DNA from: Calditrichota bacterium
GTDB lineage: Bacteria > Calditrichota > Calditrichia > Calditrichales > J004
Length of the DNA: 49,501 nucleotides
Assembly: GCA_003696775.1 (NCBI GenBank)
Contig: RFFS01000119.1
Location: 1 to 49,501 of the forward strand
Direction: 5' to 3'
Made by a program: the position numbers and the translations under genes. This document shows, piece after piece, positions 6,623 to 27,033 of this stretch. How positions within the stretch are numbered: position 1 is the stretch's first letter; each line of letters begins with the position of its first letter. Below the pieces are notes generated by a model. It saw only the letters and a program-made list of their open reading frames with translations. It ran no database searches and had not been told where the DNA came from.

Positions 6623-6660
6623 GGCTTTACTCCTTTTCAGAGAAATATGGCGCCGAGAGT

Positions 6661-7887: not shown

Positions 7888-7892
7888 TCGTC

Positions 7893-10361: not shown

Positions 10362-10363
10362 GT

Positions 10364-10591: not shown

Positions 10592-11823
10592 GTTTTATCC
10601 TCTTTAAAATGATACAAGGTACGTAACAAGGGAACGGATGCCACCGGTTGACGCCAGATGGCATAAAAGGCAGGCATGTTTCGGCGTTCCCGCCAGCGTG
10701 GGGCAAAAAGCACGCGTTCCACCAACAAGCCCAAAAACAATGCCAGGGTGAGATTTCGGGTCAAAAGAGAGACCAGGGCCACTGTTACGGCTGTCAGCCA
10801 TTGGTAGCCCCATTTCAGGTTTTTAATAAGCACCGCCATGCGCAGGGCATCCAGAGCAAGCAGGGCTCCGAGAAGCGGCACGGGTATATAGAACAAGGCA
10901 TCGGCGGCGCCGAACAGGGCCAGCACCACAAGCAGGCTGCCCGTGATGATAACAGTCCCCCCGGTGCGTGCGCCAAATTGCTTATACGCGCCCATCCCCC
11001 CCGCGCCGTGGCACATGGGGAAACCACCGAAACCGCCAATGAAGATATCGAACACACCTATGGAAATCCCCAACTTTTTCGGCGATACCCGACGGGCGCG
11101 TTCCGGCCAGAAATGATGGCACACATCCGAGGCAGCATACATGGCGTTACCCAAAGTCAACGGCAATTGGGGAATGATCAGGGCGATCAGCAGGTTGCCG
11201 GTAAGCCCCCAGGAAGGCCGCACCGGATGAATCAGCGTAGCCCAATTCGGCATATGCAGGGGCACCGCTCCACTTAACAAAGGGTATCCCATAAACATAA
11301 GCACCGCCAGCAAGGCCACCGGCACTGTGTAGCGCCGATTCACCCAATATAACAATGGCGCCAGTATCAACAGTGCCAGCAAACCAGGCATGCCGCTTGC
11401 CGCTTGCTGATGCAGCCACCATCCCTGTACAGTTACCAGTTCCAATGCTTTTTGAAGTAAAATAAGCCCGATACCTGTTTGAATCCCTGTAACAATGGCC
11501 GGGGAAAACCAACGTTGTAAAACATCCACCATGCCGCTTAAAGAGAGTAGCAGCAACAAAAAACCATACAGGACGGCGGCGGTGGACAACCACGCGCCGG
11601 GCATCGCGGCGGCGATGGCTATGACACTCATCGCCTTTAAGGGTTGCACGGAAATGGGCAAACGGAACCACCAGCCGCTGATGATATAAACAATGCCCCA
11701 CAAGAAAAAAAGGGAAACAGCCTGCATGCCGTTAAAATAAGCCAGCGCAAAGGCCAGGGGCAGCATGGTACCCATATCGGCGATCGAGGCGTTCCATTCC
11801 GATAACGTAAACCGGTTGCGCAT
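10588..11823 (-). CDS. MOT1-type molybdate (sulfate-like) transporter
   Basis: This 411-aa inner-membrane protein has about ten hydrophobic segments and matches the MOT1 family, a SulP-related group of high-affinity molybdate transporters (annotated MFS_MOT1). Family marks are EWNASIADMGTMLPLAFAL near the start, FRLPISVQPLKAMSVIAIA, and GGFGGFPMCHGAGGMGAYKQF with the Gly-rich loop and C-H pair. Its place between moaA and moaD strongly supports molybdate as substrate, replacing the ModABC importer that is not seen here. The ATG at 11823 is chosen because AGGAGG lies six bases upstream, inside the final codons of moaA. The specificity is inferred from context. Confidence 0.88.
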   Translation of the reverse strand: MRNRFTLSEWNASIADMGTMLPLAFALAYFNGMQAVSLFFLWGIVYIISGWWFRLPISVQPLKAMSVIAIAAAMPGAWLSTAAVLYGFLLLLLSLSGMVDVLQRWFSPAIVTGIQTGIGLILLQKALELVTVQGWWLHQQAASGMPGLLALLILAPLLYWVNRRYTVPVALLAVLMFMGYPLLSGAVPLHMPNWATLIHPVRPSWGLTGNLLIALIIPQLPLTLGNAMYAASDVCHHFWPERARRVSPKKLGISIGVFDIFIGGFGGFPMCHGAGGMGAYKQFGARTGGTVIITGSLLVVLALFGAADALFYIPVPLLGALLALDALRMAVLIKNLKWGYQWLTAVTVALVSLLTRNLTLALFLGLLVERVLFAPRWRERRNMPAFYAIWRQPVASVPLLRTLYHFKEDKT

Positions 11824-11825
11824 CC

Positions 11826-12815
11826 TCAACCTCCTATTTGCGCCATGGAAGCCAACGGGAAACGGTTCGCTTCTTCCGCCTCAAAGCCGTCGCGCGCTTT
11901 GGCGCCTATGATTGCGCGCAGGGCTTTCACGACTTCCGTGTCGTCGGCATGTTCCAGCATATCACGTATGTTTAGGGCGGACGGCGCGTATAAACAGGTT
12001 TGTACACCGCCGACGGGGGTTATGCGGATGCGGTTGCATTGCCCGCAAAAGGTACGGCTGTATGCGGCGATGATCCCCACCCGACCCTGGAATCCCGGCA
12101 CGGTAAACATGCGCGCCGTGGCGCTGCCGGGCGCGGCATGCATATCCGGCATGAACCGGCGCAATCGTTCTTCCATGACCCGCGCGGAGAGAAAAGTGGC
12201 ATTATCCCCGTGGCCGTTAAAAGGCATTTGTTCGATAAAACGCACATCCAGCGGTTTATTCCGGGCTAATAAACAAAAAGCCTCCAACTCATCATCATTG
12301 ACGCCACGCATCACCACCATATTGATCTTCAGCCGAAAACCGGTCTGCAAGGCTTTTTCGATGGTATCATAAACAACATGAAAGGGATCCCGGCGGGTGA
12401 TTTTATAAAATCGCCCGGGATTGAGGGAATCCAGGCTGATATTGAGGCCATCCACGCCGTTTTCTTTTAATGCATTTAAATGGGGCGCCAGGCCGACGCC
12501 ATTGCTGGTAATATGCAGGGCCCGGATTTCGGGGAATCGGCTTTTTAGTGACGTGATAAAATCCAGACTGCCTTTCCGGACAAACGGTTCTCCCCCGGTA
12601 ACACGGATTTTGCTAACACCATGACGGGTTAAAATAGCCAGCAAACGGTACCATTGTTCGTAGCTTAACAGTTTATCTCGGGGAATAAAAGGCGGGCCGG
12701 CCTCAGGCATGCAATACGTGCAGCGTAAATTGCAACGGTCTGTCAACGCGATGCGGGCATAGGTAATGGTTCGGCCGTAGGCATCTGTAAAGGGTTGCCA
12801 TGTAAGGGGTGGCAT
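11826..12815 (-). CDS. moaA: GTP 3',8-cyclase MoaA (radical SAM)
   Basis: MoaA carries out the first Moco step, converting GTP to 3',8-cyclo-7,8-dihydro-GTP, using two [4Fe-4S] clusters. The radical SAM cysteines are in DRCNLRCTYCMPE; VTGGEPFVRKG is the SAM-binding segment. The second cluster is bound by CGQCNRIRITPVGGVQTC near the C-terminus. The protein ends in Gly-Gly, the diglycine tail needed for activity in the family. The start at 12815 gives 329 residues and has AAAGGAG about seven bases upstream. A longer frame to 12878 would run through the structured leader and has no family support. It is the first gene of the Moco operon; the transporter begins two bases after its stop. Confidence 0.96.
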   Translation of the reverse strand: MPPLTWQPFTDAYGRTITYARIALTDRCNLRCTYCMPEAGPPFIPRDKLLSYEQWYRLLAILTRHGVSKIRVTGGEPFVRKGSLDFITSLKSRFPEIRALHITSNGVGLAPHLNALKENGVDGLNISLDSLNPGRFYKITRRDPFHVVYDTIEKALQTGFRLKINMVVMRGVNDDELEAFCLLARNKPLDVRFIEQMPFNGHGDNATFLSARVMEERLRRFMPDMHAAPGSATARMFTVPGFQGRVGIIAAYSRTFCGQCNRIRITPVGGVQTCLYAPSALNIRDMLEHADDTEVVKALRAIIGAKARDGFEAEEANRFPLASMAQIGG

Positions 12816-12920
12816 GTTCGGGCTCCTTTCCAAGTTCGGGAGGCGCATCCGTTTCCGGAAACACCCTTTCGGCCTCATCCCATTTCCGTTGCCGGCGGAG
12901 GCAGGGATTTTGGCTCGGAG
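12816..12920 (-). promoter_or_regulatory. Candidate Moco riboswitch in the moaA leader
   Basis: The 105 bases before moaA are GC-rich and strongly structured, unlike the AT-rich DNA further upstream. On the minus strand a GCCTC (12902-12898) can pair with a GAGGC (12876-12872), and a CCG-GCAA-CGG hairpin (12895-12886) has a GNRA loop. A second GNRA-type loop, CC-GAAA-GG, follows. A GCCTCCC (12844-12838) could pair with the same GAGGC in an alternative fold, or its CTCC could pair with the GGAG of the ribosome binding site. Conserved-looking strings (CTCCGAGCC, GCCTCCG, GATGAGGCCGAAAGG, GCGCCTCCC) resemble, from memory, the Moco RNA motif found before moaA genes. No covariance search was possible. 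Confidence 0.6.
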
Positions 12921-13021
12921 TTAATTGTCTTTAATTTACAAACAAAATACCCTTAATGTTAATAAAAATAATATTTTTAAGTGTGTCCGGAAAAAGATAT
13001 AAAAGGATATGTAATATAATT

Positions 13022-13053
13022 TAGAAAAAATCCCCACGATTTTCATCGTGGGG
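13022..13053 (-). terminator. Rho-independent terminator of the T9SS cargo gene
   Basis: A perfect 8-bp stem, CCCCACGA with TCGTGGGG, closes a 6-base loop. On the minus strand it is followed by a run of six T. It lies 52 bases after the stop of the T9SS cargo gene and separates it from the moaA leader. Confidence 0.88.
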
Positions 13054-13105
13054 AAAGTTGCCTATCCTACATGGTATTACCCTGCTTTCGGAATGCGTTC
13101 GGCGA

Positions 13106-13912
13106 TTAACGGATTAAGGACATTTTACCGGTAAGCGTACGACCCGCGGCGCTTAGGCGATAAATATAAACACCGGAAGGTAAATTGCCGGCGTGGAAGG
13201 TTACATCGTGCGCGCCGGCGGTCAGGGCTTCGTCAATAAGTCCGGCCACTTTTTTGCCAGTTAAGGAAAAAACATCCAGACGAACATGGGCGGTAGCCGG
13301 CAGGTAAAAACGTATCCGTGTGGAAGGGTTAAACGGATTGGGATAATTGCCGGATAACGTCAGTTGTTGCGGCAGAATGCGTTCGTTTTTGATTGCGGTG
13401 GGACTGACAACGGTAATGGTTTTACTTTCCGCGAAATTCCAGGCGTCGCCGCTGTTGGTGCCGCTTAAATTCACACTTTTGCCATTGGCGGCCATGGTCA
13501 CTGTTCCGGCTGCTTGCGGCGCCGTATAGGTGAATGCGAAGGTCACTTTACCATTAGCAGGTAATTTGGGAGCGGTATGGGTTAATTCACCGTTCAACAA
13601 CTGCAAATCACTACCCGTGGTATTCAGCGTGCCGGAAGAGACGGCGACATTCGTACCGGCGGATTTTAACGGCCCGCCGCTGATGGTAACGGTATAGTTT
13701 GCGGTCTCACCGACCTGTAATGTATCCACGCCGTCAAGCGTAACGGTTACCGAGCTGGAAGGGGTACTGCTATGGCAGGTACACCCCGGTGAAGCACTGA
13801 GCTTAGTGACGCCTGTTTTGCCGCCGGATCGCGCCCAAAGCAAAGTCACAATCACTAACAATCCGCCGGAAAGAAACTTAACAAATAATGAACGGCTCAT
13901 ACGTTCAATCAT
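13106..13912 (-). CDS. Exported choice-of-anchor-V-like protein with T9SS sorting domain
   Basis: The 268-aa product has an N-terminal hydrophobic export signal (FLSGGLLVIVTLLWA). A motif GKTGVTKLSASPGCTCHSS follows, then about 140 residues of beta-rich sequence ending near TITVVSP. The C-terminal 80 residues are a type A T9SS sorting domain (LSGNYPNPFNPSTRIRFYLP, then VRLDVFSLTGKKVAGL and PSGVYIYRLSAAG). The domain directs outer-membrane translocation and surface attachment or release. The front part resembles Reeler-like 'choice-of-anchor V' proteins, which usually carry a CxxCH haem-like motif; here the spacing is CxCH. The start at 13912 has AGGAG upstream. It follows mobA by 17 bases and ends in a strong terminator. 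Ligand and role unknown. Confidence 0.8.
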   Translation of the reverse strand: MIERMSRSLFVKFLSGGLLVIVTLLWARSGGKTGVTKLSASPGCTCHSSTPSSSVTVTLDGVDTLQVGETANYTVTISGGPLKSAGTNVAVSSGTLNTTGSDLQLLNGELTHTAPKLPANGKVTFAFTYTAPQAAGTVTMAANGKSVNLSGTNSGDAWNFAESKTITVVSPTAIKNERILPQQLTLSGNYPNPFNPSTRIRFYLPATAHVRLDVFSLTGKKVAGLIDEALTAGAHDVTFHAGNLPSGVYIYRLSAAGRTLTGKMSLIR

Positions 13913-13929
13913 AACGTCTCCTATAAATA

Positions 13930-14544
13930 TTATTGGGTTTTGTATATGGATGTTTGCGGCGGGTGCAATCGTTGCATGGCCAGTTCCAGATCATTTTTAT
14001 AATTGATATTGATAAACCATTCTTCCTTATAACCCGGCATGTGTGTATGCACATCCACGATGGTGGCGTTTTGATTACGAAGAATTTCATACAAACGGTA
14101 TGCGCCGTTTTGAATGGCCTGTTCAAAAACATCTTTGGTGTCCGCGGGCCATAAGCTCACCAATGGCTCCAGTCCTTTATGCGAACGGGCCACAACCGGA
14201 TGGCCCTGTCGAACCAAAGGATATAAAAACCGATATACGGAGGCATCCAGCAACGGCATATCCACGGGCATGACGGCCAGCCAGGGTTTGGAACAATAAT
14301 GCAAGGCCGTGTAAATACCGCATACCGGGCCGCATCCGCTTACCAAATCCGGATGAACGGCGGAAACTCCCTCGGGGCGTTCCTCCATCCTGCCAATCAG
14401 GATCACATCTTCGGAAACCCGTCGCGCAATGTCCACCGCATGTTCCAACAGGGTTTTGCGTGCTAAGAGGGCTTCCGTTTTAGGCGCGCCGAATCGTCTG
14501 CTTTTTCCCCCGGCTATGATGGCAATACTGACCTGATCCAACAT
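13930..14544 (-). CDS. mobA: Molybdenum cofactor guanylyltransferase MobA
   Basis: MobA links GMP from GTP to Mo-molybdopterin, giving the guanine dinucleotide cofactor used by the DMSO reductase family. The 204-aa product has IAIIAGGKSRRFGAPK (the nucleotide-binding loop), SGCGPVCGIYTAL, and VMPVDMPLLD with the metal-binding aspartate. A typical closing segment is FININYKNDLELA. It is separated from the main Moco operon by the T9SS cargo gene and its terminator, and is probably expressed with that cargo gene. Only a weak purine stretch (GGAAAAAAA) precedes the ATG at 14544. Its presence implies that the organism has molybdopterin-guanine-dinucleotide enzymes; none is in the window. Confidence 0.93.
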   Translation of the reverse strand: MLDQVSIAIIAGGKSRRFGAPKTEALLARKTLLEHAVDIARRVSEDVILIGRMEERPEGVSAVHPDLVSGCGPVCGIYTALHYCSKPWLAVMPVDMPLLDASVYRFLYPLVRQGHPVVARSHKGLEPLVSLWPADTKDVFEQAIQNGAYRLYEILRNQNATIVDVHTHMPGYKEEWFININYKNDLELAMQRLHPPQTSIYKTQ

Positions 14545-14723: not shown

Positions 14724-16349
14724 TTATTGCTTTACCCAACGGCCGTCGGTTTTAATTTTAAGCGGCGAATGGTTGCGCACATATTCCGTAACCGCTTCAC
14801 GCAGGATGATTCCCGTTCGGTCGATGCGCTCTTCCGGTACTTCGGCCAAAGCATCCAGTCCGGAATTACCTTCCGCCAGATAGTCCGTGGTGGCCACCTT
14901 ATACCAGGCATTATCATCCAACGGTTTACCATTTATTGTAAACGAAACGATTTTTTGACCGTCGGGCGCGTTACGTTTATAAACAACCCGGCCTCCGCCA
15001 ATGGCCATGCCGGAACGGTTACCACGTACTTTCCTTTCGATCAGGCCGCGTAACATGGCACCGCGTATTTTAAGCACCACGATGGCGTTACCGAATGGCA
15101 ATACACGGAAAATATCACGCGGCGTAATAGGACCGATGGGTAAATCCGAGCGGATGCCGCCAAAGTTGGTGAACGCGAAATCGGCGCCGCTTGCTTCCAA
15201 CATGGCGTCACAGATCAGGTTATTCATGGGTGATTCGCCCTGGGCGCGTGTTAAAGCCTGTTCCGTTACACCAATCACTTCGTCAAAGCCCTTTTCCACT
15301 TCGGCCTGGCGCTTACGTATCAAAGCCGCCATCTCCGGATCGGGCCAGTATTCATCGGTAGTCAGCAACAATAACCCGCTGTTATCCGAGGGCAGCTCAT
15401 ATCCGGCAATGGTGTGTGTTGCTTTGTCGATTAAAATTTCCGCCATGCCCAGGTTCCCGCCGTTGCCGTAATTCTGAAAACAGATGGTATGATTTTCCGG
15501 ATCGACCCAGGGTTGAGGATAGCCTTTGTGAATATGGCCGCCCATCAGGATATCGATGCCTTTCACATAATGAGCCAGCTCCATGGCATTGAGATAGGAA
15601 GTTTTATGGATATTTTGCCGAATTTCTTCCTGCAATTGACGCCAGCCTTCTTCCGTATTATAAGGCAGGCCCATGTGCACCAGACCGATGACGATATCGG
15701 CGCCCATGGCGCGCAGGGTGTCCACCGCACGCTGGGCGGCGGGCGATTCATCGGTAAAATCCAGCCCTTTGATATGTTCCGCAAAGCTCATGTTTTTGGT
15801 CGCTTCGGTGGTCAATCCGAAAATTCCGATTTTAATTCCCTGTTTATCCAGCAGGGTCCACGGCTTTACATATCGCCAGGGTTTACCTGTCTCTTTTTCG
15901 ATAATATTGGCGGACAAGATCGGGAAACGGGCGCGCTCCACCAGCCTGGCGAGATTGTCCTTGCCGAGATCAAAATCATGATTACCCGCGGATACGGCAT
16001 CATACCCGACGGCATTCATATAATCGATGATCGCCGTGCCGCCGGTGCGGGTGCCCAGGGGAGTTCCCTGAAAAATATCACCTGCGTCGAGCAGCAAAAC
16101 CGCCGCGCCTTCCTTTTGGGCGCGTTCACGTACATTTTTAATGATGGCCGCGGCACTGGCGCCTCCCCCGAGTACCGGAGGAAAGTTAGGATTCAAAAAG
16201 GTCGCTTCCGTTTCCACGATACCGCCGTGTACATCGTTGGTATAAAGGATATATAATTTTCGGTTGTCGGCTTTATCCGCGGCGTTCAGGGCCAGGGTTG
16301 CCATCCATAACCAGCCGGCTATCGCCCGCCAGCGTGTTAAATATTTCAT
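14724..16349 (-). CDS. UshA-like 5'-nucleotidase/metallophosphatase, exported
   Basis: The 541-aa product has a signal peptide (WLWMATLALNAAD) and the two domains of the UshA/5'-nucleotidase family. The N-terminal metallophosphatase has YTNDVHGG, LLDAGDIFQGTPLG, SAGNHDFDLG, GLVHMG and GGHIHKGY, which supply the dimetal site. The C-terminal substrate domain has SPMNNLICDAM, FTNFGGIRSDLP, DIFRVLPFGNAIV and YLAEGNSGLDAL. Such periplasmic enzymes remove phosphate from extracellular nucleotides so that nucleosides can be taken up. It is the last gene of a run of five exported proteins, 11 bases after the FadL-like gene. The exact substrate (nucleotide, nucleotide sugar, cyclic nucleotide) cannot be fixed. 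Confidence 0.9.
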   Translation of the reverse strand: MKYLTRWRAIAGWLWMATLALNAADKADNRKLYILYTNDVHGGIVETEATFLNPNFPPVLGGGASAAAIIKNVRERAQKEGAAVLLLDAGDIFQGTPLGTRTGGTAIIDYMNAVGYDAVSAGNHDFDLGKDNLARLVERARFPILSANIIEKETGKPWRYVKPWTLLDKQGIKIGIFGLTTEATKNMSFAEHIKGLDFTDESPAAQRAVDTLRAMGADIVIGLVHMGLPYNTEEGWRQLQEEIRQNIHKTSYLNAMELAHYVKGIDILMGGHIHKGYPQPWVDPENHTICFQNYGNGGNLGMAEILIDKATHTIAGYELPSDNSGLLLLTTDEYWPDPEMAALIRKRQAEVEKGFDEVIGVTEQALTRAQGESPMNNLICDAMLEASGADFAFTNFGGIRSDLPIGPITPRDIFRVLPFGNAIVVLKIRGAMLRGLIERKVRGNRSGMAIGGGRVVYKRNAPDGQKIVSFTINGKPLDDNAWYKVATTDYLAEGNSGLDALAEVPEERIDRTGIILREAVTEYVRNHSPLKIKTDGRWVKQ

Positions 16350-16360
16350 AGATATTCCGT

Positions 16361-17620
16361 TTATAAATGTATGGTCAAATCGATTTTTGCCAGCGTTTCA
16401 TTCCATTGCACACGATCATTATCACTTCGGGACGTTTCTCCATACAGGGCGTTATCGTACAGGTCCGCCTGAAAAAATTCCAGGGCGCTCCAGGCAAAAC
16501 CGGCATTCCATTCCAGACGGTTCATTCGATACCCTATTCCTGTGGTTAAGCGTGTACGGGTTAATTCACGGTTTTCACGATCGGTTTCGAAGCTGTAACC
16601 GGCGCGGAAGGCGAAATCATCAAAAAAGACATGCTCCACGCCGATGCGTGCGTTGTAGGTATTGTTAAAAGCTTGCGACGGGTCGGCACTGTCTTCAAAG
16701 CGGCTCCAAAACGTGTAATAAAAATCAACCATCAGGCGCGCCTGTAAAATATTACGGAAGCGATAGTCTAACCCCACGCCGACCCGCGCCGGATAACGCA
16801 TCGCGCTCCGTATGCGGTAGGTGGTATCCGTCGAACTGTAAGTAAGGGTTTCATCAATAGTAAAAGGTGTACGGAAAGAAGCGCCGACGGTCAACCGTTC
16901 ATTCACCCGCCAGGCGGCCCCCAATGTGGCCAACGCGGGTAAAACTTCCGTTTTCCGGCTAATTTGTACATCCCGGGCGATATCTTCCACCGACAGGGCC
17001 TTGGGCTCAATCCGGTCGCTTCCATCGGGATCACCGTTGAGCACGGCCACGCTCACCCCGGCGCTGACAGTCCCATAAGAGGCGGCAAGTGTCAGGGTAT
17101 TTCGATAGCGGTAGCCATTTGAGGTTTGTTCATTATAGGCCAGCAAATTATCGCCAAAACCGCTGCTGCGCACTTCTTCGAAATAGGTGTAATTATAATC
17201 GATAAACGGTTGAACGGAGGTGCTTAATACCATATTCAACCCGCTATACAGTGGTGGCAATTGCCAGGCAATCTGCACCGCCGCATGGAATACGCTGTTA
17301 TCCTGATAATAAAAGGAACCGTAATCGACAAAGCCGTTAAAATTATCGTAATAGGGAAAAGAACGGTCTTCGGTCAGGGCCGCATATCCACTGCCCAGCC
17401 AAAGGGTCAAACCGCTATCCGCCCGCGCGGCCAGCGCCGGGTTATAGCCCGCGGCCAGGGCAGGATTGCCCGCCGCCAGTCCCGCGCCGCCCATGGAAAG
17501 GCTGCGCGCCGAAGGCGCAAAAATTGTCTCGCCGTAGCGCATTTTCAACAAATTCAGATTGCCCTGTTGCGCCCAAAGGGTCAATGTTCCCGCCAATAGC
17601 CAAAATAGAATGCGTTTCAT
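16361..17620 (-). CDS. FadL/OmpP1-like outer-membrane beta-barrel protein
   Basis: This 419-aa protein starts with a signal peptide (MKRILFWLLAGTLTLWAQQ). An N-terminal segment LLKMRYGETIFAPSARSLSMGGAGLAAGNPALAAGYNPAL follows in the part I can read, with the SMGGAG...NPA pattern of FadL and PorV relatives. The remainder alternates aromatic and polar residues as in a barrel of about 14 strands (YARIGVEHVFFDD-like turns, LTTGIGYRMNRLEW). It probably sits in the outer membrane and passes small or hydrophobic compounds. It lies 15 bases after the HhH-barrel gene and 11 before the nucleotidase gene, so it belongs to the same transcript. The cargo is unknown; nucleosides would fit the neighbours, but that is only inference. 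Confidence 0.75.
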   Translation of the reverse strand: MKRILFWLLAGTLTLWAQQGNLNLLKMRYGETIFAPSARSLSMGGAGLAAGNPALAAGYNPALAARADSGLTLWLGSGYAALTEDRSFPYYDNFNGFVDYGSFYYQDNSVFHAAVQIAWQLPPLYSGLNMVLSTSVQPFIDYNYTYFEEVRSSGFGDNLLAYNEQTSNGYRYRNTLTLAASYGTVSAGVSVAVLNGDPDGSDRIEPKALSVEDIARDVQISRKTEVLPALATLGAAWRVNERLTVGASFRTPFTIDETLTYSSTDTTYRIRSAMRYPARVGVGLDYRFRNILQARLMVDFYYTFWSRFEDSADPSQAFNNTYNARIGVEHVFFDDFAFRAGYSFETDRENRELTRTRLTTGIGYRMNRLEWNAGFAWSALEFFQADLYDNALYGETSRSDNDRVQWNETLAKIDLTIHL

Positions 17621-17635
17621 GCCATCCCCGTATCG

Positions 17636-20158
17636 TTAAAAGGTGTAATTCATTTCCAAATAAACTGTGTTGTTGTTGCTCCGCGCATAATCGGCGTTGT
17701 AAAGCCGGCCGATTTCCGGAGAATTAGGATTAAAATTGATATTCTGAGCCGGTGCCTGAATATCCAGGGTGTATTTCAGTCGCAGACTAAAATAGCTGCT
17801 TAAACGGCTGTACATGGACAACCAGGCGCGCATGGCCCCGCGGTTACTGTCCGTTACGATGAATTGCGTATCCTCAAAATTCCAGATAAAGCCCTTGTAA
17901 AACAGAAAAAAACCGCTCAGCTTGAGGTTTGTGTTCACATTATGCGTGAAGCCCGCGCCATAACCTTCGCTATCCAGAACAATATCGCCAAAAACACGCG
18001 GCCGCGGATGCACCAGTGTTTTGCTGTTTATATAAATTAAATCCATGCTACTGAAATTGGATAGACGGGCACGCATGCGTCCCCGGAATTCCAAACTCTT
18101 AAAATAACGCAAAGAGATGTTATTCTGGGCATCGCGGGCCTGCCATTTTTGCCTGAACTGAAATTGCAGGGGAAAAATCGGCCGGTAATTCAGCCAGCCC
18201 ACCAGCCGGTATTGCGCGGCCTGATCGGCCAGACGTGTCCATTGGTCGTATTCAAAGCGGGTGGTCCACTGACGACTGATCTGGTAATAGCTGTTCAGAT
18301 AAAAACCCTCTTCGCTTTGCGGTTGAACGGCGTTGGTGTAAAGCTGCCCGTATAACGCCGATTGCAGATAGTAGTAATCTTCGTATATGGTGCCCTTAAA
18401 GCGACGGTAATTGGAAAACGACCGCTGATAGGGATTATCGTAAGCCACATCGTAATGACGGTACAAAGCGAGCAAATTAAAACTGGGATATTGCAGATAA
18501 GCGGAAAGCGTGAGCGCTTTGGGATCATCGCCAGGCTTAAACAGACTGCCGCCCTTATCCAGTTCGCCGTATTCACCCATTAGGGCCAGATTCCCGATGA
18601 CTGACTGGAAATCGACTCCGTAAACCCGACGAAACGACCGGGCTTCGGACCATAACGGGCTGCTGCCCCGGCTCACCGGCCCGCCGTAGGCCTGCTTGAT
18701 TTCACTGTCCGTCGTTACCTGGCGCCGTTCCCAGTTGTTTCCGGCAACGATTTCCTCCGGATTGGGCTCCAGGTATCGATCGTAGGCGCTTTCGTACCAG
18801 GTAACGCCCAGCCAGGTACCGGGCCAAAAATCGTATTGCAGGTGGCCGCCAAGGGTTAGTTCGTTCACGGCATCCAACCAGGAAAGATTGGTTTGATCGG
18901 GCAGCCGACCGGCATCATCCCCGGCATAGGGGAAACGCTGGTCAAGCACAATCAATTGGTTAAAGGCACGGTGGCCGGCTGAATCCACGGCGGCACGGTT
19001 TAATATGGCGTCCCGTGGCGCCAGCGAAGCAAAACCGATGGCGCTGAGATTGCCATAAGCCAACTCCGCCGCCACGCCGCGCAGGGCAAATTGCCGTGTC
19101 CGGGAATTATCACCGGCCAGCCCTTTAAACCGCTTACGGAAACCAAAGCCGGATTTACGCGGGGTAAAAAAGTCGGTATTTTCCATCACCACACCCTGCC
19201 CAAAGGTGACACTGTAATTCCCGACATAGAGCTTGCGCAGCTCCAACGGCGTACCGCCCATATCCCATTGCATATTTTCCAAACCGGCAAACCATTTCAT
19301 TTTGGGCAGCATTTTCCCGGAATCGTAATAAAAGACAGGCTCTCCGAGATAATGATTGTACGAAAAGCCGAATTTATAGTGCCGGTGCCAGGAAAAACGT
19401 CCCTTTACAAACTGGTTGGGATAGGTATTGGCCTGCGACACCAATCCGCCGTTGCTGTTGAGCAGATTAACCTCGGTGCTCACATCGCTTTCATCGGCAA
19501 ACAAGGGTGTATTGTCCACGCGTACCGTTACATGGCCATGCCAGGCGGGACCGTCTTCCGCGGGTGCTTCATAATCCACAAAATTGCGGGCATTGGCGTA
19601 ACCGTAATAACTCAGTCCGGGAACACCGCGTAAATCACGCATATTGCGGATGCGACCGTTATCGTGCCTGTAATTCAGGATGGCCACGGCATCCACGGGC
19701 GATACATTCTGTAAATTGATCAGCGCGTCATAACGGGTATCATTAATGTTGATGGGATCGAGGGCGTTTTCAATCCACAGGTCGATCAGGGCATCACTTA
19801 CCCCTTCGTTACCACTCCAGCGGTCCAGCCGGAAATACATCTGTTCGATGCGTTGCTGTGTGGTGCTGCGCATCCGAAACGGTTCTACACGGATCAGGTC
19901 GCGGATTTTCAGAAACAGTTGCTGATCAACACCTTCTATGCGTTTCAGATCATACACATTGCGCAGATCGCCACGATAGGTGAGGTAATTGTAGATATTT
20001 CGGGACACCTCTTTGGACACCGGCAGTTGTTCAATTTCCTCCAGTGTGGCATTATTGATATCCAGACGGTTATCGGGTGTATAGGTCTGGGCTCCTGCCA
20101 GGGAAGCCAGGATCAGCAGCAACCATAAAGGGCGATATAAACGGATTTTCAGTTTCAT
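17636..20158 (-). CDS. Outer-membrane beta-barrel with N-terminal helix-hairpin-helix domains
   Basis: The 840-aa product has a signal peptide (WLLLILASLAGAQ). Two ComEA-like helix-hairpin-helix domains follow: residues about 31-90 (LDINNATLEEIEQLP, RGDLRNVYDLKRIEGV) and 134-196 (ININDTRYDALINLQNV, IRNMRDLRGVPGLSY). After about residue 200 it becomes a long beta-strand protein rich in Tyr, Trp and Arg and ends in YLEMNYTF, a typical aromatic barrel terminus. HhH domains bind DNA backbone without sequence preference, so an outer-membrane protein with two of them at its periplasmic end could hold or pull in DNA. Proteins of this build occur in FCB genomes with no assigned function. It lies between the PorV-like and FadL-like genes with 15-base gaps on each side. 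Confidence 0.8.
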   Translation of the reverse strand: MKLKIRLYRPLWLLLILASLAGAQTYTPDNRLDINNATLEEIEQLPVSKEVSRNIYNYLTYRGDLRNVYDLKRIEGVDQQLFLKIRDLIRVEPFRMRSTTQQRIEQMYFRLDRWSGNEGVSDALIDLWIENALDPININDTRYDALINLQNVSPVDAVAILNYRHDNGRIRNMRDLRGVPGLSYYGYANARNFVDYEAPAEDGPAWHGHVTVRVDNTPLFADESDVSTEVNLLNSNGGLVSQANTYPNQFVKGRFSWHRHYKFGFSYNHYLGEPVFYYDSGKMLPKMKWFAGLENMQWDMGGTPLELRKLYVGNYSVTFGQGVVMENTDFFTPRKSGFGFRKRFKGLAGDNSRTRQFALRGVAAELAYGNLSAIGFASLAPRDAILNRAAVDSAGHRAFNQLIVLDQRFPYAGDDAGRLPDQTNLSWLDAVNELTLGGHLQYDFWPGTWLGVTWYESAYDRYLEPNPEEIVAGNNWERRQVTTDSEIKQAYGGPVSRGSSPLWSEARSFRRVYGVDFQSVIGNLALMGEYGELDKGGSLFKPGDDPKALTLSAYLQYPSFNLLALYRHYDVAYDNPYQRSFSNYRRFKGTIYEDYYYLQSALYGQLYTNAVQPQSEEGFYLNSYYQISRQWTTRFEYDQWTRLADQAAQYRLVGWLNYRPIFPLQFQFRQKWQARDAQNNISLRYFKSLEFRGRMRARLSNFSSMDLIYINSKTLVHPRPRVFGDIVLDSEGYGAGFTHNVNTNLKLSGFFLFYKGFIWNFEDTQFIVTDSNRGAMRAWLSMYSRLSSYFSLRLKYTLDIQAPAQNINFNPNSPEIGRLYNADYARSNNNTVYLEMNYTF

Positions 20159-20173
20159 CGGCGGCTTGTCCCT

Positions 20174-21034
20174 TTAAAATGCGTACATCAGACTGAAACT
20201 GTGTGTTTCGGCCAGTGTGGGGTGATTGCGAAATCCATAATCCAGTCGGAAACCGGCGTAATGAACACCCAACCCGGCGCTGAAACGATTGGGTTGTGTA
20301 CTGGCGCCAAAGCGCAGGTCCAACACATCCATGAGGTTGAATTCAAAACCCGCTTCAATCATTGCCGGCAGATTGATGGTTTTATCCATGGCCAGCGTGG
20401 TGGTCAATCCGGAATAGGGTCGGTAGGCGGCGCCCACCACTATGCGGCGTTGCAATGTACTGTTACCGCCAACGCCAATGTTCGGGCTGTTGAAATTAAA
20501 AACGGTCACACCAAGATACGTCCGTTTATAAATCGAAGCCATCAGCCCCACATCCAGCCCCACGGTACCCGCGGCACCCAACTCCCGGCCTTCCACGGAT
20601 TGTCCGAGCTTCCAGTAATAATACTTCAGGTTGTATCCCACGGATAAAGTGGTATGGATATCGTTCAGCAGATAAATACCGTGCGCAATACCGACCGTGG
20701 TTTCCTGACTTAATGTTTCCCCTTTGTAATTCACGCCGAAATTATCCACAATCACACCGGCGGTGCCGTATTGCGCGGACAGGGGTATCACGGCGGCGCC
20801 AAACACCGTATTAAAAAAGGAATAGCCAAAAGGACGATGATATGCGGCGCCGACTTGCATGCCGTTCACCTGCGCCAATCCGGCGGGATTATAATAGGCC
20901 GCCCAGGCATCGTTGGCAACCGCCACAAAAGCGTTGCTCATCGCGGAAGCACGGGCCGATGGTGTGCGGTCGTCAAAAGCGCCGGCATTCAATATCGTTA
21001 ACAGGGTCAACAGAGATATCAGTATGCGTTTCAT
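20174..21034 (-). CDS. PorV/PorQ-like outer-membrane protein
   Basis: The 286-aa product has a signal peptide (ILISLLTLLTILNAGAF). The PorV/PorQ opening RTPSARASAMSNAFVAVANDAWAAYYNPAG is read in part: S-A-R-A-x-x-M, then A-x-x-x-N-P-A-G. A barrel-like remainder ends in SFSLMYAF. PorV shuttles T9SS cargo from the translocon to attachment; PorQ and many paralogues have related folds but other or unknown jobs. The start at 21034 has GGAAAGAG upstream; a longer frame to 21070 lacks this. It follows the large lamin-tail/OB gene by 63 bases. It could be the outer-membrane partner of that secreted protein, but this is inference. Confidence 0.78.
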   Translation of the reverse strand: MKRILISLLTLLTILNAGAFDDRTPSARASAMSNAFVAVANDAWAAYYNPAGLAQVNGMQVGAAYHRPFGYSFFNTVFGAAVIPLSAQYGTAGVIVDNFGVNYKGETLSQETTVGIAHGIYLLNDIHTTLSVGYNLKYYYWKLGQSVEGRELGAAGTVGLDVGLMASIYKRTYLGVTVFNFNSPNIGVGGNSTLQRRIVVGAAYRPYSGLTTTLAMDKTINLPAMIEAGFEFNLMDVLDLRFGASTQPNRFSAGLGVHYAGFRLDYGFRNHPTLAETHSFSLMYAF

Positions 21035-21097
21035 AAAACTCTTTCCGTTTAAATGGCTAAAAAGGGCCATGATGTTCGGGTCTATATTATTTATGTT

Positions 21098-24000
21098 TTA
21101 ACGGGACAGCAGCGTACCCACCACAACAGGCGCTACTTTTACGGTTTTATCTCCCGTCTCTTCGTTTACTACTTCATAATGCAGAATATAACTGCCCGGT
21201 GTCAGACGATCGCCCAATTCGTTGCGACCGTCCCACTTAAAGGTTACCGCGATAGGGATACCGTCCCCGTCACGAAGCGTGGCCACCAAACGGCCGGCCA
21301 TGTCAAAAACACGCAGGGTTACGTGAGTACTGCCACCGCCCGCGCCGTAAGTAATCGGCAATTGTTCACCCTGATCCGGCGCAAAGGGACGCGGCGGCAC
21401 ATCCAGGGTGACCGGTAAACTGGCGATATCCACCTTGCTGATATCTTCCTGATAACCCACGAGTATCTGCCCGGCGTCACGGAAAACACCATGTGCCCCC
21501 TTCACTTCAATCAGATCGCCCACGGCGATATCATCCAGATTTAATCCGGCTGTATCCCACACCCGGACGGTGGTTTCACCGCTGCCGTCGTCCATGTAAA
21601 TATTGGTGCCGCCACCGGCCACGCTTTTTCCGGTCACGATACCCTGAACGGTTACCCAGCTCCCTTCATAATCGGTCAGGGCTGCTTCCGCCGTGGAAAG
21701 CCTGATCGGATCGGGCAGCGGCACATGTCTTGCCAATACGGTTGTTGTGTAATTCTCAATTTCCAGAACGCCGTTGTATAAGGTCAGCGTGCCCTGCAAC
21801 ACAACAAGGTTGCCGCGGGCAATATCGGGATCGGCGCCGCCGGCGCGGAAGATGTTCAAACCCACGCCGTTTTCATCGGCGATGTAGGCGGAAGTCAAAT
21901 CGTTGCGCAATATCCCGGAACCGATGACAATGGTCCCTTTCACGGCCACACTGCTACCGTCACCCCGTTGCCGGGCTTCTTCCATCTTAATAGTCGGAAT
22001 GGTGGTGCCTTCCCCCACCAAAACAATCGGCGAGGCGGCCACCGGCGCAAGCAGACCTCCCTCGCCGGCCGTATAAGCGTTGAATGTGGATACTTTGTCA
22101 CTATTGGGTGCGGTGAGGTTTTTAAGGGTTAAGGTGCCTTCAAAGCCGCTTTCCAAACTAAAATCACTTAAAAGAATGGTGTTGCCGTTAATGGATATCG
22201 AGGCGTCCGAGAAGTCGCCGCCTGTTGTCACATCGTCAGCGGAAGCGCTGAACCCCCAGTCGTCGGGTATATCCACCCGCGCCTGAACAAGGGGTCCGGC
22301 ATCAGAGGGTGTAAAGGTAAACAACAGGTCGGTGGAAGCATTTTTCTCCACCTGCGCCGGGGATACGGTAACATTGCCGCTTCCATCCACCGGGACATAC
22401 AGGTCACTGAACCGGATATCATCATCATAAGCCACCAATAACTGGGCGCTGCCGTTATAAATATCGATTACACCACGCATGGCCACCGTATCGCCCAAGG
22501 CATACGGCGATAAATCCACGCCGCTGCTTTCCCAAACACGTGCCACCAGAGAGTTGGCGCCGTTGGTCAGTGTTACGTTATCGCCTCCCCCCACATTAAA
22601 GATATCGGTAATCACACCACTGACTTCCACCATGGTACCTTCCAGCGATGTATCCGCCGCAGTTGCGAGAGACACCTGGGACACCGCGGGCACATCAAAC
22701 CCACTGCCTTCTACTGTCACGCCGAAATTGGTGATTTCCGTGGTACCGTTATAGGTATCCACCGTGCCGGTGATGGTCACTTTGTTGCCCCGTTTTAAAT
22801 CCGGTGTTAAATCGGGAGAACGAAAAACATTTATGCCCCGTCCACTTTCATCCTGTACATACGCATCGGTCCAGGAGGTCGTGGTGACGCCACTGCCTAT
22901 GCTGACCACACCCTGTACGGTTACTTCCCGTCCCAACCACTCACCTACGTTGTTTTGGATATCGGCGATGGTTGTCGGTTTAAACACAAAAACAGAAGGA
23001 AACGAAGCGATGGGCGTCAACCGACCACCGCCGACAGCGGTCAATACGGGAAAAGATGTGGTTTCCGACGCGTCCGGCGCGGTTAAACCGGCGATGGTGA
23101 TTTCAGCGCCTGCATTGTCAATCAGCGCCGTATTATTGATATGGATTGTGTCCGCGCTTACCACCAGTTCCCCGGAGGGCGCCGACAACGAGACATCCGC
23201 GCTGCTTCCGCTGAACGTCCAGGATTCTGGAATAACAATTGCGGCGCTTTCCAGTGTGTAGGGCGCGGTTCCGGTAAGGGTAAAGGTCAATGTAACCGCC
23301 GTGGCGGCATCCACCGTATCCGGAGTGACCGTGGCGGTTCCGCTGCCATCGCCGGGCACTTCACTAAAACTGCCGGGAGACGGGGTGGATAAGGCAAAGG
23401 TTTGCGCCCAGTCTTCGCTGGTTTCATCATGTCCTGAAATCCCATTGCCACCGCTGGTTGTTTCGCCCGGTTCTTCCGCATTGGAGCGTTGGTAGCTGTT
23501 GCCGGTTGTCGGCGAAGCCAGTGCCTTTTGCGATGATTTGGCTGTTTCGTTTTGATAGACGGATGGCGTGCTGTCCGCATCCGGGCCATCCATGGACACC
23601 CCGCTTTTATCCATCCATCGGTCTTTAAAAAAAGAGAGGCCCCAGGCCAGATAATCTTCATCATAAACAAGGTCATTGGCGCCATTCCAATAAAAAAGAA
23701 TGGCCATGCCGGCACTGGGGTCCAATGTGATGTTTCCACCGGCGTAATGCACCACCATATCAGACGTATTGTCATCATCGCCGGATATCTCATAATCGGC
23801 GTTTTTACCATAGGCCGACCTGAACGCGGCGCCATATAAAGCGACGGTACGGGTTCCGTGTGGCGCGATAACGGCTCCGGCCGGAAATTGAACCAAAAAA
23901 TCACTGGTGGTATTGCTGAATGTGGCTGTTACCACTTCGTAATACTGGTTATAATTGGAAAGATAGATGCTGTCCAGGGGTACGGTTTGATCACCCGGAT

Positions 24001-24124
24001 TATAAATTTCAATAAAAGCCTTTTGCTGATCCGCCGAAGCGGGGATATAAATTTCGGAAATAAGCAAATGGCTTTGCGCCCAGGCGAGTACGGGCAGGAA
24101 TATTAACACAACTAAGAGACGCAT
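21098..24124 (-). CDS. Large secreted lamin-tail domain / OB-fold repeat protein
   Basis: The 1008-aa product has a signal peptide (LLVVLIFLPVLAWAQ) and a lamin-tail-type domain at about 17-175 (LISEIYIPASADQQKAFIEI, YNPGDQTVPLDSIYLSNY). Two copies of a three-part module follow: Ig-like strand domain (260-381; 580-703), OB-fold of the YhcR/DUF5689 kind (385-472; 706-798) and a second OB-fold (485-573; 808-895). The end (905-1005) is FlgD-like and works as a T9SS-type C-terminal region (LRVFDMAGRLVATL, PGSYILHYEV). Lamin-tail and OB domains together are common in extracellular nucleases, but no nuclease domain is visible. The start at 24124 has GGAG six bases upstream. It is the first gene of the five-gene run. 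No function assigned. Confidence 0.78.
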   Translation of the reverse strand: MRLLVVLIFLPVLAWAQSHLLISEIYIPASADQQKAFIEIYNPGDQTVPLDSIYLSNYNQYYEVVTATFSNTTSDFLVQFPAGAVIAPHGTRTVALYGAAFRSAYGKNADYEISGDDDNTSDMVVHYAGGNITLDPSAGMAILFYWNGANDLVYDEDYLAWGLSFFKDRWMDKSGVSMDGPDADSTPSVYQNETAKSSQKALASPTTGNSYQRSNAEEPGETTSGGNGISGHDETSEDWAQTFALSTPSPGSFSEVPGDGSGTATVTPDTVDAATAVTLTFTLTGTAPYTLESAAIVIPESWTFSGSSADVSLSAPSGELVVSADTIHINNTALIDNAGAEITIAGLTAPDASETTSFPVLTAVGGGRLTPIASFPSVFVFKPTTIADIQNNVGEWLGREVTVQGVVSIGSGVTTTSWTDAYVQDESGRGINVFRSPDLTPDLKRGNKVTITGTVDTYNGTTEITNFGVTVEGSGFDVPAVSQVSLATAADTSLEGTMVEVSGVITDIFNVGGGDNVTLTNGANSLVARVWESSGVDLSPYALGDTVAMRGVIDIYNGSAQLLVAYDDDIRFSDLYVPVDGSGNVTVSPAQVEKNASTDLLFTFTPSDAGPLVQARVDIPDDWGFSASADDVTTGGDFSDASISINGNTILLSDFSLESGFEGTLTLKNLTAPNSDKVSTFNAYTAGEGGLLAPVAASPIVLVGEGTTIPTIKMEEARQRGDGSSVAVKGTIVIGSGILRNDLTSAYIADENGVGLNIFRAGGADPDIARGNLVVLQGTLTLYNGVLEIENYTTTVLARHVPLPDPIRLSTAEAALTDYEGSWVTVQGIVTGKSVAGGGTNIYMDDGSGETTVRVWDTAGLNLDDIAVGDLIEVKGAHGVFRDAGQILVGYQEDISKVDIASLPVTLDVPPRPFAPDQGEQLPITYGAGGGSTHVTLRVFDMAGRLVATLRDGDGIPIAVTFKWDGRNELGDRLTPGSYILHYEVVNEETGDKTVKVAPVVVGTLLSR
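21440..22387 (-). repeat. Second copy of the Ig-OB-OB module in the 1008-aa protein
   Basis: This stretch encodes residues about 580-895. It parallels residues 260-573 domain by domain, including GSGNVTVSPAQV against GSGTATVTPDTV, IGSGILRNDLTSAYIADENG against IGSGVTTTSWTDAYVQDESG, and YNGVLEIENY against YNGTTEITNF. The likeness is at protein level and diverged, so the duplication is old. Confidence 0.75.
22406..23347 (-). repeat. First copy of the Ig-OB-OB module in the 1008-aa protein
   Basis: This stretch encodes residues about 260-573, the upstream copy of the module described for 21440-22387. The two copies are adjacent in the gene, with only a few residues between them, which is what a tandem duplication followed by divergence would leave. 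Confidence 0.75.
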
Positions 24125-24416
24125 GCAGCACTCCGGTTTCGAGTCAGGGTTGTAGTCATCATTTTTAGAAAAAGGAATTCAATTTAGCAAGATGATACAG
24201 GAAAATCAATGAATGGCCGGTATATCTAACACAAAATTAACACAATCATTTGATGCCTGTAGATACACATATACATGATCGAAACGATATTTTTAAAACC
24301 ATAACAGAAACCCAACCAATCGTCCATTACAAACGGTGTTTTGATTTTCAGGAGGGATGAGAATAAAGCGGACTTTCGGCCCGGGATTAGGGTTAAGGCC
24401 CGGTTAAGCGATAAAT
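24125..24416. other. 292-base gap before the large secreted-protein gene
   Basis: No convincing coding frame is seen. On the minus strand TAATTTTG at 24239-24232 fits the TAnnTTTG -7 element described for Bacteroidota promoters, though no matching -33 TTG is at the right distance. Near the left end of the sigma gene, two direct GGCCCGG repeats occur (24379-24405) without a terminator-like U-tract. The promoter of the five-gene exported-protein run must lie here or be within the upstream sigma gene. Confidence 0.35.
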
Positions 24417-24992
24417 TTATTTCTTAAGGCGTGTTTTTTCGGAGATGTAACCATGTTGGTCAGCGTAAGTCCATAACTGGCGTTGCAACAGTTTACGCCC
24501 GCGATATAACCGGGACATCACCGTTCCCATGGGACAGTTTATCATCTGCGCGATTTCGCTATAAGTGAACCCTTCCACATCACACAGCAATACCACCAAT
24601 CGAAAAATGTAAGGCAGTTTGATGAGCGCGTTATGCACATCATCAGTAAAAAAATATTCACGACCGCCCACAGCGGGGGCCGACATATCCGGGATTTCAA
24701 CCCGATGTTTATGCAGTGTAAACTCTTCCACATCTTCAAAACGCACTTTTTGCGGCTGACGGATATGTTTGCGATACGACGTGATATAACTGTTGACAAG
24801 AATTCGAAATATCCAGGCGCGGAAATTGGTGTTGGGCTGAAATTGATTGAGCGAGCGGTAAGCCTTATAAAGTGTTTCCTGCAAAAGGTCTTCGGCATCC
24901 GTTTTTTTACGCGTCATGCGCAACGCGGTATTTTTAAGGGACGCCATATGCGGTTGCACCCATTCAGCAAAAAGAGCCTGATTGGAATTCAT
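24417..24992 (-). CDS. ECF-type RNA polymerase sigma factor
   Basis: This 191-aa protein has the two domains of extracytoplasmic-function sigma factors. Sigma region 2 is at about residues 10-80 (KKTDAEDLLQETLYKAYRSL, NFRAWIFRILVNSYI), which binds the -10 element and core polymerase. Sigma region 4 is at about 120-180 (FRLVVLLCDVEGFTYSEIA, GTVMSRLYRGRKLLQRQL), which binds the -35 element. No anti-sigma gene is adjacent. It lies directly upstream of the five-gene exported-protein run on the same strand, so it might regulate or be cotranscribed with it across the 292-base gap. Only a weak ribosome binding site (TAGAG) precedes the ATG. Confidence 0.9.
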   Translation of the reverse strand: MNSNQALFAEWVQPHMASLKNTALRMTRKKTDAEDLLQETLYKAYRSLNQFQPNTNFRAWIFRILVNSYITSYRKHIRQPQKVRFEDVEEFTLHKHRVEIPDMSAPAVGGREYFFTDDVHNALIKLPYIFRLVVLLCDVEGFTYSEIAQMINCPMGTVMSRLYRGRKLLQRQLWTYADQHGYISEKTRLKK

Positions 24993-25066
24993 TTTTTAGC
25001 TCTATAAAATTGAAAGATATAAAAGTATAACGAATAAAAATATTTGTGTCAACAAATAAATATTGG

Positions 25067-26257
25067 TCACGATTTGGGCAACAGGATACGGAACGTACTG
25101 CCCTGGCCCGGCCTGCTTTCTACGAGTAGTAATTTTCCGGAATGATATTCTTCCACGATACGTTTGGCCAGGCTCAGCCCCAGGCCCCAGCCACGTTTTT
25201 TGGTGCTGAAGCCGGGTTTAAAAATGGCGGTTTTGTGTTTGGCGGCTATCCCCTTGCCGCTGTCACGGATATCAATGATGTAATGATGGTTTCCCTCTTT
25301 TACACGGATGTTTATCTCCCCGCTTTGATCAACTATGGAATCAATGGCGTTTTTGATCAGGTTTTCCAGCACCCATTCAAACAAATCGCGGTTGATTTTA
25401 GCCTGCAACTCGCCGGTAACTTCCGCGGTGATAATGATGCGTCGGTTCAGGTGGGGCAACCGGCGGTTAAAGTAGGTGACGGTGGAGGTTATCAGTTCCG
25501 TAAGAGACCGCTCCTTTAGTTTGGGAATCGATCCGATTTTCGAGAATCGATTGGCGATTTTATTCAAACGTTGCAGGTCGTTTTCCATTTCACCCACAAT
25601 TTCCGAGGTGTTTTCAGGCGTGCTTTTCAGCAACTCCACCCAACCGGACAAGGAACTTAACGGTGTGCCTAACTGATGGGCTGTTTCCTTGGAAAGCCCC
25701 ACCCAGATAGAACGTTGTTCGCTTTTTTTGATGTAGGTAAACCCAAAATATCCCAACAAAATAAAGATAATCCCGATAAAGAAAATGACAAACGGTAAAC
25801 TGCGCAGCTTATATATTTCCGGCGGATAGCCATAATAATAATAGCCTAAAACCGCATCGTTATAGGTGATGGGAATCGGAGTGTTTTCCGTGGCGATCTC
25901 CTTAAGTTTCGCGGCAAGGGCCAGAGAATCCTCTGCAGTGAAGAAATGCAATGTGTCCAGGCGGCTGTCGATGTTTTTCCAGCTTTGGGGAATGCCGCGA
26001 CTGTCCGTATAGATGATGGGATAATCCGCGCGCCGGATAACTTCATTGAAAAAGAAATTAACATCCGAGTTTTGGCTGGGGTTATTGATATTCTCTTCAA
26101 ACAGCCGGATACGGAAGCGGATATATTCGGTGGATTTTTCCTTAAGGGAATCGACCAGCTTTTGGGTGTACCACAAAACGCCGATGCTGATGAGAATGCC
26201 AAATAAAAAGAGCAGCCCCTTAAATCCGGCGCTGCTCCTGGGCAACAGTTTTTTCAT
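25067..26257 (-). CDS. Membrane sensor histidine kinase without HAMP domain
   Basis: The 396-aa protein has two membrane helices (about 12-32 and 154-175) flanking a periplasmic sensor region of about 120 residues. No HAMP or PAS domain is seen. The phospho-acceptor is H194 in SKETAHQLGTPLSSLSGW, a variant H-box typical of FCB kinases. The ATPase part has the N-box VLENLIKNAIDS, G1 box DIRDSGKGI, F-box FKPGFSTKKRG and G2 box GLGLSLAKRI. No response regulator is adjacent. It is 15 bases after the TPR gene and probably belongs to the HEAT/cyclophilin-TPR-kinase transcript. Signal unknown. Confidence 0.9.
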   Translation of the reverse strand: MKKLLPRSSAGFKGLLFLFGILISIGVLWYTQKLVDSLKEKSTEYIRFRIRLFEENINNPSQNSDVNFFFNEVIRRADYPIIYTDSRGIPQSWKNIDSRLDTLHFFTAEDSLALAAKLKEIATENTPIPITYNDAVLGYYYYGYPPEIYKLRSLPFVIFFIGIIFILLGYFGFTYIKKSEQRSIWVGLSKETAHQLGTPLSSLSGWVELLKSTPENTSEIVGEMENDLQRLNKIANRFSKIGSIPKLKERSLTELITSTVTYFNRRLPHLNRRIIITAEVTGELQAKINRDLFEWVLENLIKNAIDSIVDQSGEINIRVKEGNHHYIIDIRDSGKGIAAKHKTAIFKPGFSTKKRGWGLGLSLAKRIVEEYHSGKLLLVESRPGQGSTFRILLPKS

Positions 26258-26272
26258 GGATTATTGTAAATC

Positions 26273-27019
26273 TTATAAATCTTCAAGCCGCTCACGGGCG
26301 GTTGCTTTATGTCCGGCATCCCGGGAGGTGGTTTCCGGCAGAGACAGCACCGTTTCAAATTCCTTTTTGGCCAGTGCGTCCCGGCCTTCCATCTGGTAGG
26401 TAATCCCCAATTCCAGATGATGATTGATGTATTGGGGATTTATTTCGATGGCTTTTTTAAAATTGGCAATGGCTTTTTCCATGGAGGCGTCCTGGGGCAC
26501 TCCCCCCAAGAACATATCGGCGAAACCTTTTTCTATCCAGCTTAAATTGGATATTTTACGATGCCAGCGGGCCAGAACATGATAGGCGATATCATTTTGG
26601 GGATTCAGAGCGATGGCCTTTTCCGCTTCCTTGCGAATCTCCTTAGACATTTTCACGCGTTGCCTGGCGCTGGCATCCAGGGCCACACGTCCCAAGGCTA
26701 CCGATAAAAACAAATGACCGTTGCTGCCATCGGGTTTTAATTCCACCGCTTTACGGGCATAAAATGCTCCTTTTTCATAAAGGGCCGCCCGGGCATCGTC
26801 ATCTTCCGTGTCTTCTCCTACATTCACGCAAACGCGGGCCAGCTTCCATGCCAGCTCATAATCATCGGGATGTTCGGCGTATGCCTGTTCGTAAAGCTGC
26901 ATGGCTTTATGGTCATCAAAGGCGTTAAAAGCGCTGTCACCGGCTGCGGTTACGGGATTTTGCCCCCATAAAGGCATTAAAAACAGTAGGGCGCTGATAA
27001 AAACTAAACGTAAGAACAT
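26273..27019 (-). CDS. Exported TPR-repeat protein
   Basis: The 248-aa product starts with a signal peptide (LVFISALLFLMPLWGQ) and then consists of tetratricopeptide-like helical pairs. Examples are FDDHKAMQLYEQAYAEHPDDYELAWKLA-type spacing, AFYARKAVELKPDG, EKAIALNPQND and FKKAIEINPQYI. The middle region with GFADMFLGGVP resembles TPR proteins of the mitochondrial RMD/PTPIP51 kind that are also found in FCB bacteria. It is likely periplasmic and binds partner proteins. The start is set at 27019 because GAGAGG lies seven bases upstream; an ATG at 27034 has no such site and overlaps the preceding stop. It lies between the HEAT/cyclophilin gene and a kinase gene. Confidence 0.8.
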   Translation of the reverse strand: MFLRLVFISALLFLMPLWGQNPVTAAGDSAFNAFDDHKAMQLYEQAYAEHPDDYELAWKLARVCVNVGEDTEDDDARAALYEKGAFYARKAVELKPDGSNGHLFLSVALGRVALDASARQRVKMSKEIRKEAEKAIALNPQNDIAYHVLARWHRKISNLSWIEKGFADMFLGGVPQDASMEKAIANFKKAIEINPQYINHHLELGITYQMEGRDALAKKEFETVLSLPETTSRDAGHKATARERLEDL

Positions 27020-27033
27020 GGACGGGCCTCTCA

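Follow-up and report, generated by a model that had tools for sequence, protein, structure and literature searches.

DNA binding by HhH domains relies on the GhG hairpin, and in YhcR a 5'-nucleotidase is joined to OB domains. In Flavobacterium, genes encoding substrates of the type IX secretion system (T9SS) are often located beside cognate shuttle genes, which determine how the substrates are secreted and localised (PMC12618676). In Riemerella, transposon screening identified two adjacent genes, RA0C_RS04920, encoding a DUF5689 protein, and RA0C_RS04915, encoding a predicted outer-membrane barrel, both being essential for natural transformation (PMC8459023). For the BAM complex of the Bacteroidota type, BamG was shown to hold the surface lipoprotein BamH (PMC12578637, PMC12611786). 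Here, we provide an analysis of an operon at positions 14724-24124 of a Calditrichota contig, the window being the whole stretch of 49,501 nucleotides that was analysed. It comprises five ORFs on the minus strand, transcribed in the order gene 1 to gene 5:

Gene 1, 24124-21098, minus strand: 1008 aa, secreted lamin-tail (LTD)/tandem OB-fold protein (DUF5689-like) with a C-terminal FlgD_ig domain (T9SS-type)
Gene 2, 21070-20174, minus strand: 298 aa, PorV/PorQ-like outer-membrane protein, start probably Met13; putative shuttle/anchor
Gene 3, 20158-17636, minus strand: 840 aa, two N-terminal HhH_3 domains followed by a large outer-membrane barrel of ~24 strands
Gene 4, 17620-16361, minus strand: 419 aa, FadL-family outer-membrane protein
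Gene 5, 16349-14724, minus strand: 541 aa, UshA-like metallophosphoesterase/5'-nucleotidase with intact metal ligands
Upstream intergenic region, 24125..24416, minus strand: 292 bp, presumed promoter region of the operon

The genes are separated by 27, 15, 15 and 11 bases. With the internal Met13 (MKRILISLL...) as start of the PorV-like gene, the first gap increases to 63 bases, and the range of 11-63 bases given in the original prediction results from counting this gene from the internal start. The ORF coordinates confirm the five same-strand genes with these gaps, a hydrophobic signal peptide is visible by eye at the N-terminus of all five proteins, and the domain matches support the predicted composition of an LTD/OB protein, a PorV-like protein, a double-HhH barrel, a FadL-like and a UshA-like protein. 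Scans for sigma-70 promoters and terminators gave no excess compared to shuffled sequences. Upstream and on the same strand (window 24417-29001) are genes for an ECF sigma factor, a histidine kinase, a TPR protein and a HEAT-repeat cyclophilin, which could be candidate regulators of the operon. On its other side the operon is flanked by a molybdenum-cofactor cluster (window 5969-14544, minus strand; MoeA, a MoaC/MoCF fusion, ThiF-rhodanese, a MOT1-type molybdate transporter, radical-SAM MoaA and MobA). Elsewhere in the window, the plus strand encodes a Tex-family protein unrelated to the operon (242-2476), in which an HhH_3 domain scores strongly (7.9e-29), and a protein with weak similarity to T2SS GspL/PilM (30905-31780), adjoining ORFs of 562 and 418 aa for which no Pfam matches were obtained.

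Gene order was scored with profiles of all five proteins at 59 loci, 28 from Calditrichota and 31 from other phyla, all counts being conditional on the HhH barrel, which served as the search query. The four-gene core OB - PorV - HhH barrel - FadL is present at 25 of 28 Calditrichota loci and at 21 of 31 loci outside the phylum. All five genes are found in order at 14/28 and 15/31 loci, respectively, the latter including four loci at which the UshA gene is incomplete or out of place: a partial, displaced UshA-like match is all that three related genomes have, and in a fourth genome the UshA gene lies 1.5 kb further on. Several of the loci with missing operon genes are contig ends. Across the loci, the gaps between operon genes often range from -11 to +30 bases, and overlaps of 4-11 bases are frequent, suggesting translational coupling of neighbouring genes. 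Within the named genome collection, the relatives that were matched are Calditrichota, nearly all searched members of which have homologues of the HhH barrel. Outside this phylum, homologues were found in 35 genomes from at least 22 GTDB families, two weak partial matches being excluded from this set. Distant homologues, which are shorter (~680 aa), are found in the Bacteroidota phylum, several of them having an adjoining PorV-like gene, and the group of G242 is probably Bacteroidota, as judged from strong SprA and BamG matches. Calditrichota also encode a second, shorter HhH-barrel protein (~640 aa; L157, L162, L171) resembling the Bacteroidota type. The operon neighbourhoods revealed no sixth component common to the phyla, except for an ABC solute-binding protein, the gene of which precedes that of the OB protein in five genomes from four families (L104, L106, L091, L094, L113). 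The arrangement is far beyond chance, because the HhH barrel is present in at least 22 families, the order is kept in dozens of genomes and the genes often overlap or nearly touch. We found no published description of the operon in the open-licence literature, in agreement with the original prediction, which knew of no described system of this exact composition. It is a real operon with wide conservation that, to the extent of this literature, has not been described.

The sequence of gene 1 points to a link with type IX secretion, which is encoded in the window genome as judged by matches to SprA (SprA_N, 1.2e-36) and PorU (6.4e-244). Besides LTD (3.9e-9) and OB-fold (4e-9) domains, gene 1 has a FlgD_ig domain (7.6e-7) at its C-terminus, a T9SS-type domain that was overlooked in the original prediction; the genome contains 44 FlgD_ig matches. 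The same region also has a weak match to the T9SS sortase (PorU) model, within the C-terminal part of the latter, and relatives of gene 1 also carry a FlgD_ig/Por_Secre_tail domain there. The T9SS sorting-domain models are not reached by gene 1 of the window and match its relatives only, and weakly. Amid the molybdenum-cofactor genes (window 13106-13912, minus strand) there is an ORF of 268 aa whose product has a T9SS sorting domain (Por_Secre_tail, 1.8e-7). Gene 2 matches PorV_fam with 2.4e-19 and 70.1 bits, which is below the curated cutoff of 90, and we therefore call it PorV-like only. By analogy to the Flavobacterium pairs, the OB/PorV-like pair would fit the logic of T9SS cargo/shuttle gene pairs. 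Outside Calditrichota, SprA_N was detected in 32 of the 35 genomes with an HhH barrel and in 53 of the 312 genomes lacking one (Fisher p 6e-19, uncorrected for relatedness), and PorU was above the cutoff in 14 of 17 carriers tested, being absent in the three genomes lacking SprA. One of these, G171, also lacks the OB/CTD gene. In G279 (L102), neither SprA nor PorU was detected, yet the four-gene core is kept, which speaks against a strict dependence on the T9SS.

Gene 3 contains two HHH_3 copies (1.3e-17, approximately residues 30-195) and a conserved G[DN]YxxxFGQG motif, and its AlphaFold model, which is of modest quality (mean pLDDT 68), shows N-terminal helices followed by 24 strands. Foldseek searches with this model returned generic large barrels only (TM ~0.3), with 24-strand FimD ushers on top and SprA being absent from the listed best matches. 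These data bear on a rival explanation according to which the HhH barrel serves the adjoining C-terminal-domain protein as a SprA-like translocon, with the PorV-like protein as shuttle. The order of large barrel, PorV-like protein and CTD cargo mirrors the SprA-PorV-cargo logic and persists in G279, and an usher is among the closest folds; however, the structural matches are generic, most carriers have a full T9SS and there is no obvious place for the UshA and FadL genes. We therefore regard a dedicated translocon as unlikely. The same low probability applies to the broader proposal that the HhH barrel represents a new outer-membrane translocation channel with its own PorV-like shuttle and CTD protein, i.e. 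a compact system parallel to SprA/T9SS, found in more than one phylum and capable of lasting where SprA and PorU are missing.

The original prediction considered the HhH and OB domains as binding extracellular DNA, which our data do not support. Hairpin 3 of the HhH segment is a near-invariant (N/G)VSPVDA across core members and lacks GhG; the other hairpins are without the second glycine, the sole GhG being that of a single hairpin in one core member. The HhH segment has a mean net charge of -6 and a median pI of 5.0 in the family, and the LTD/OB protein of the window has a pI of 4.1 with every segment, including each OB domain, being negatively charged. In contrast, the HhH domain of a separate ComEA encoded in the same genome is strongly basic (net charge +11, pI 11.1) and has glycine-containing hairpins. 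Salt adaptation can be a source of acidic surfaces, yet this ComEA is not acidic. Judged by their sequences, the key domains do not resemble DNA-binding domains. As the original prediction had stated, no nuclease domain is visible in the OB proteins scanned, neither in that of the window nor in its operon relatives; gene 1 reaches 38.6 bits against the ExeM model (cutoff 300), and no nuclease was found in the neighbouring LTD proteins. The broader DNA/nucleotide reading is only partly supported: the exported proteins, the unusual composition, the conserved order, which the original prediction had proposed to check, and the intact UshA-type site agree with it, and DNA binding, judged by the residues of the HhH and OB domains as the original prediction had asked, is not supported.

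These features also weigh on the proposal that the operon is an outer-membrane DNA-uptake machine in which the OB protein captures DNA, the HhH barrel imports it and the UshA-like enzyme scavenges nucleotides. It draws on the analogy to the transformation-essential Riemerella pair, on the HhH_3 and ComEA-type matches and on OB proteins of this operon from other genomes matching DUF5689 with up to 48.4 bits/1.4e-12 (gene 1 of the window: 17.1 bits, cutoff 28.6); conversely, some DUF5689 proteins match the operon OB profile with up to 4e-11. Ten Bacteroidota loci with strong DUF5689 matches (L205-L214) mostly have an adjoining ORF of 910-959 aa in the layout of the Riemerella pair, and near one of them (L207) a secreted protein is encoded whose start is EEP-nuclease-like. 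However, models of the HhH barrel did not significantly match the large barrels beside DUF5689 in Bacteroidota (E ~1 or worse), so the HhH barrel has no detectable homology to the Riemerella-type barrel, and the comparison supports a functional analogy only, by which a nucleic-acid role of the operon would be possible. The lost GhG hairpins and the acidic HhH and OB domains, as well as the separate ComEA, ComEC and PilQ-like secretin of the same genome, argue against DNA uptake. The presence of ComEC in 77 of 80 genomes counts in favour of uptake, but neither ComEC nor the PilQ-like secretins (70/80) distinguish carriers and non-carriers; we therefore rejected competence co-occurrence as evidence. 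DNA uptake is thus a doubtful explanation, albeit the most probable of the rivals.

Gene 4 matches Toluene_X/FadL (1.2e-4) and PorV_fam (3.5e-14), and its model (pLDDT 92.8) is a confident FadL-type barrel. The best Foldseek matches are FadL homologues and BamG with TM values of 0.6-0.7 (FadL-type structures, E 1e-17 to 1e-12, TM ~0.65). The match to the BamG structure 9hiv_F (TM 0.68), together with a weak sequence match to BamG (4.7e-9) and the known pairing of BamG with a surface lipoprotein, raises the question whether the operon is an accessory of a Bacteroidota-type BAM complex, i.e. a BamG/BamH-like module. We rejected gene 4 being BamG itself, since it reaches 35.8 bits at a cutoff of 250 and the genome has a far better candidate elsewhere (G000:C164, 4.5e-48). 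Moreover, no lipobox is seen by eye in gene 1. All this makes a BAM accessory very unlikely.

Gene 5 contains a Metallophos (1.9e-10) and a 5_nucleotid_C domain (9.8e-38) and the metal ligands D39, H41, D91, N123, H124, H225, H272 and H274 are intact, consistent with the predicted identity as UshA-like 5'-nucleotidase, although it does not reach the cutoff of the UshA equivalog (211.7 bits versus 600). The ligands are intact in most other copies too. Several of them have been substituted in the copies from eight Caldithrix-order genomes (G006, G007, G009, G010, G011, G016, G018, G020), which retain the UshA-like gene and the C-terminal arginine R400; these copies (L056, L037, L039, L048, L040, L038, L035, L049) are probable pseudoenzymes encoded within the operon. 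The loss of ligands in genomes keeping the gene means that, at least there, phosphate release or catalysis is not the sole reason for UshA retention. This decay of the active site in one order is a further point against DNA uptake.

The conserved order, the domain content and the co-occurrence with SprA lead us to favour the operon encoding a conserved surface complex of the outer membrane that is assembled with the aid of the T9SS, to which we assign a probability of about 0.5. According to this model, gene 1 would be exported by the T9SS via its FlgD_ig-type C-terminal domain and, as in the Flavobacterium pairs, be retained by gene 2, its cognate PorV-like partner, at the surface, where it may act as an extracellular receptor or lid atop the large HhH barrel of gene 3. 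The acidic N-terminal HhH pair of gene 3 would form a periplasm-facing plug or docking module rather than a DNA clamp, the FadL-family barrel of gene 4 may serve as a side channel or structural partner, and the UshA-like protein of gene 5 could act in the periplasm by processing or binding a phosphorylated ligand. The operon would most likely serve in the uptake or processing of a phosphate-containing ligand. The pointer to the ligand is the UshA family name, and against it stands the degenerate active site of this enzyme in one order; nucleotides or nucleic acid are possible ligands and the leading, but unproven, candidates. If a nucleic-acid role holds true, the operon would be a candidate outer-membrane entry route for DNA or nucleotides outside Bacteroidota. 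The order being kept in lineages of more than one phylum and the large barrel belonging to a family without a name other than that of its HhH domain suggest a hitherto unstudied basic function in the envelope. The domain names HhH and OB suggest DNA handling, and the contrary evidence from charge and motifs corrects this tempting inference.

Compared with known systems, the T9SS cargo and cognate shuttle/anchor pairs (PorV for type A, PorP/SprF for type B) share with the operon a secreted protein, here with a candidate C-terminal domain of sorting type, adjoining a small barrel of the PorV/FadL kind; the operon differs in three further genes, encoding a large HhH barrel, another FadL-family barrel and a UshA-like enzyme, and in its PorV-like protein remaining under the PorV-family cutoff. 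The Riemerella/Flavobacteriaceae pair RA0C_RS04915/RA0C_RS04920 likewise places a surface OB-type protein, a DUF5689 protein in that pair, beside a large barrel, but the Riemerella barrel carries a carboxypeptidase-regulatory domain and the pair is without PorV, FadL and UshA genes. ComEA has the HhH_3 fold in common with gene 3, presumably in its periplasmic part, whereas the HhH domains of the operon are acidic, have lost GhG and are fused to an outer-membrane barrel. BamG/BamH resembles the operon in combining a FadL-family barrel with a surface protein in an outer-membrane complex, gene 4 being only a distant paralogue. Finally, ExeM/NucH share lamin-tail and OB domains (ExeM-type) with gene 1; compared to these and to YhcR, the operon is without a nuclease domain, distributes its parts over separate proteins and includes outer-membrane barrels.
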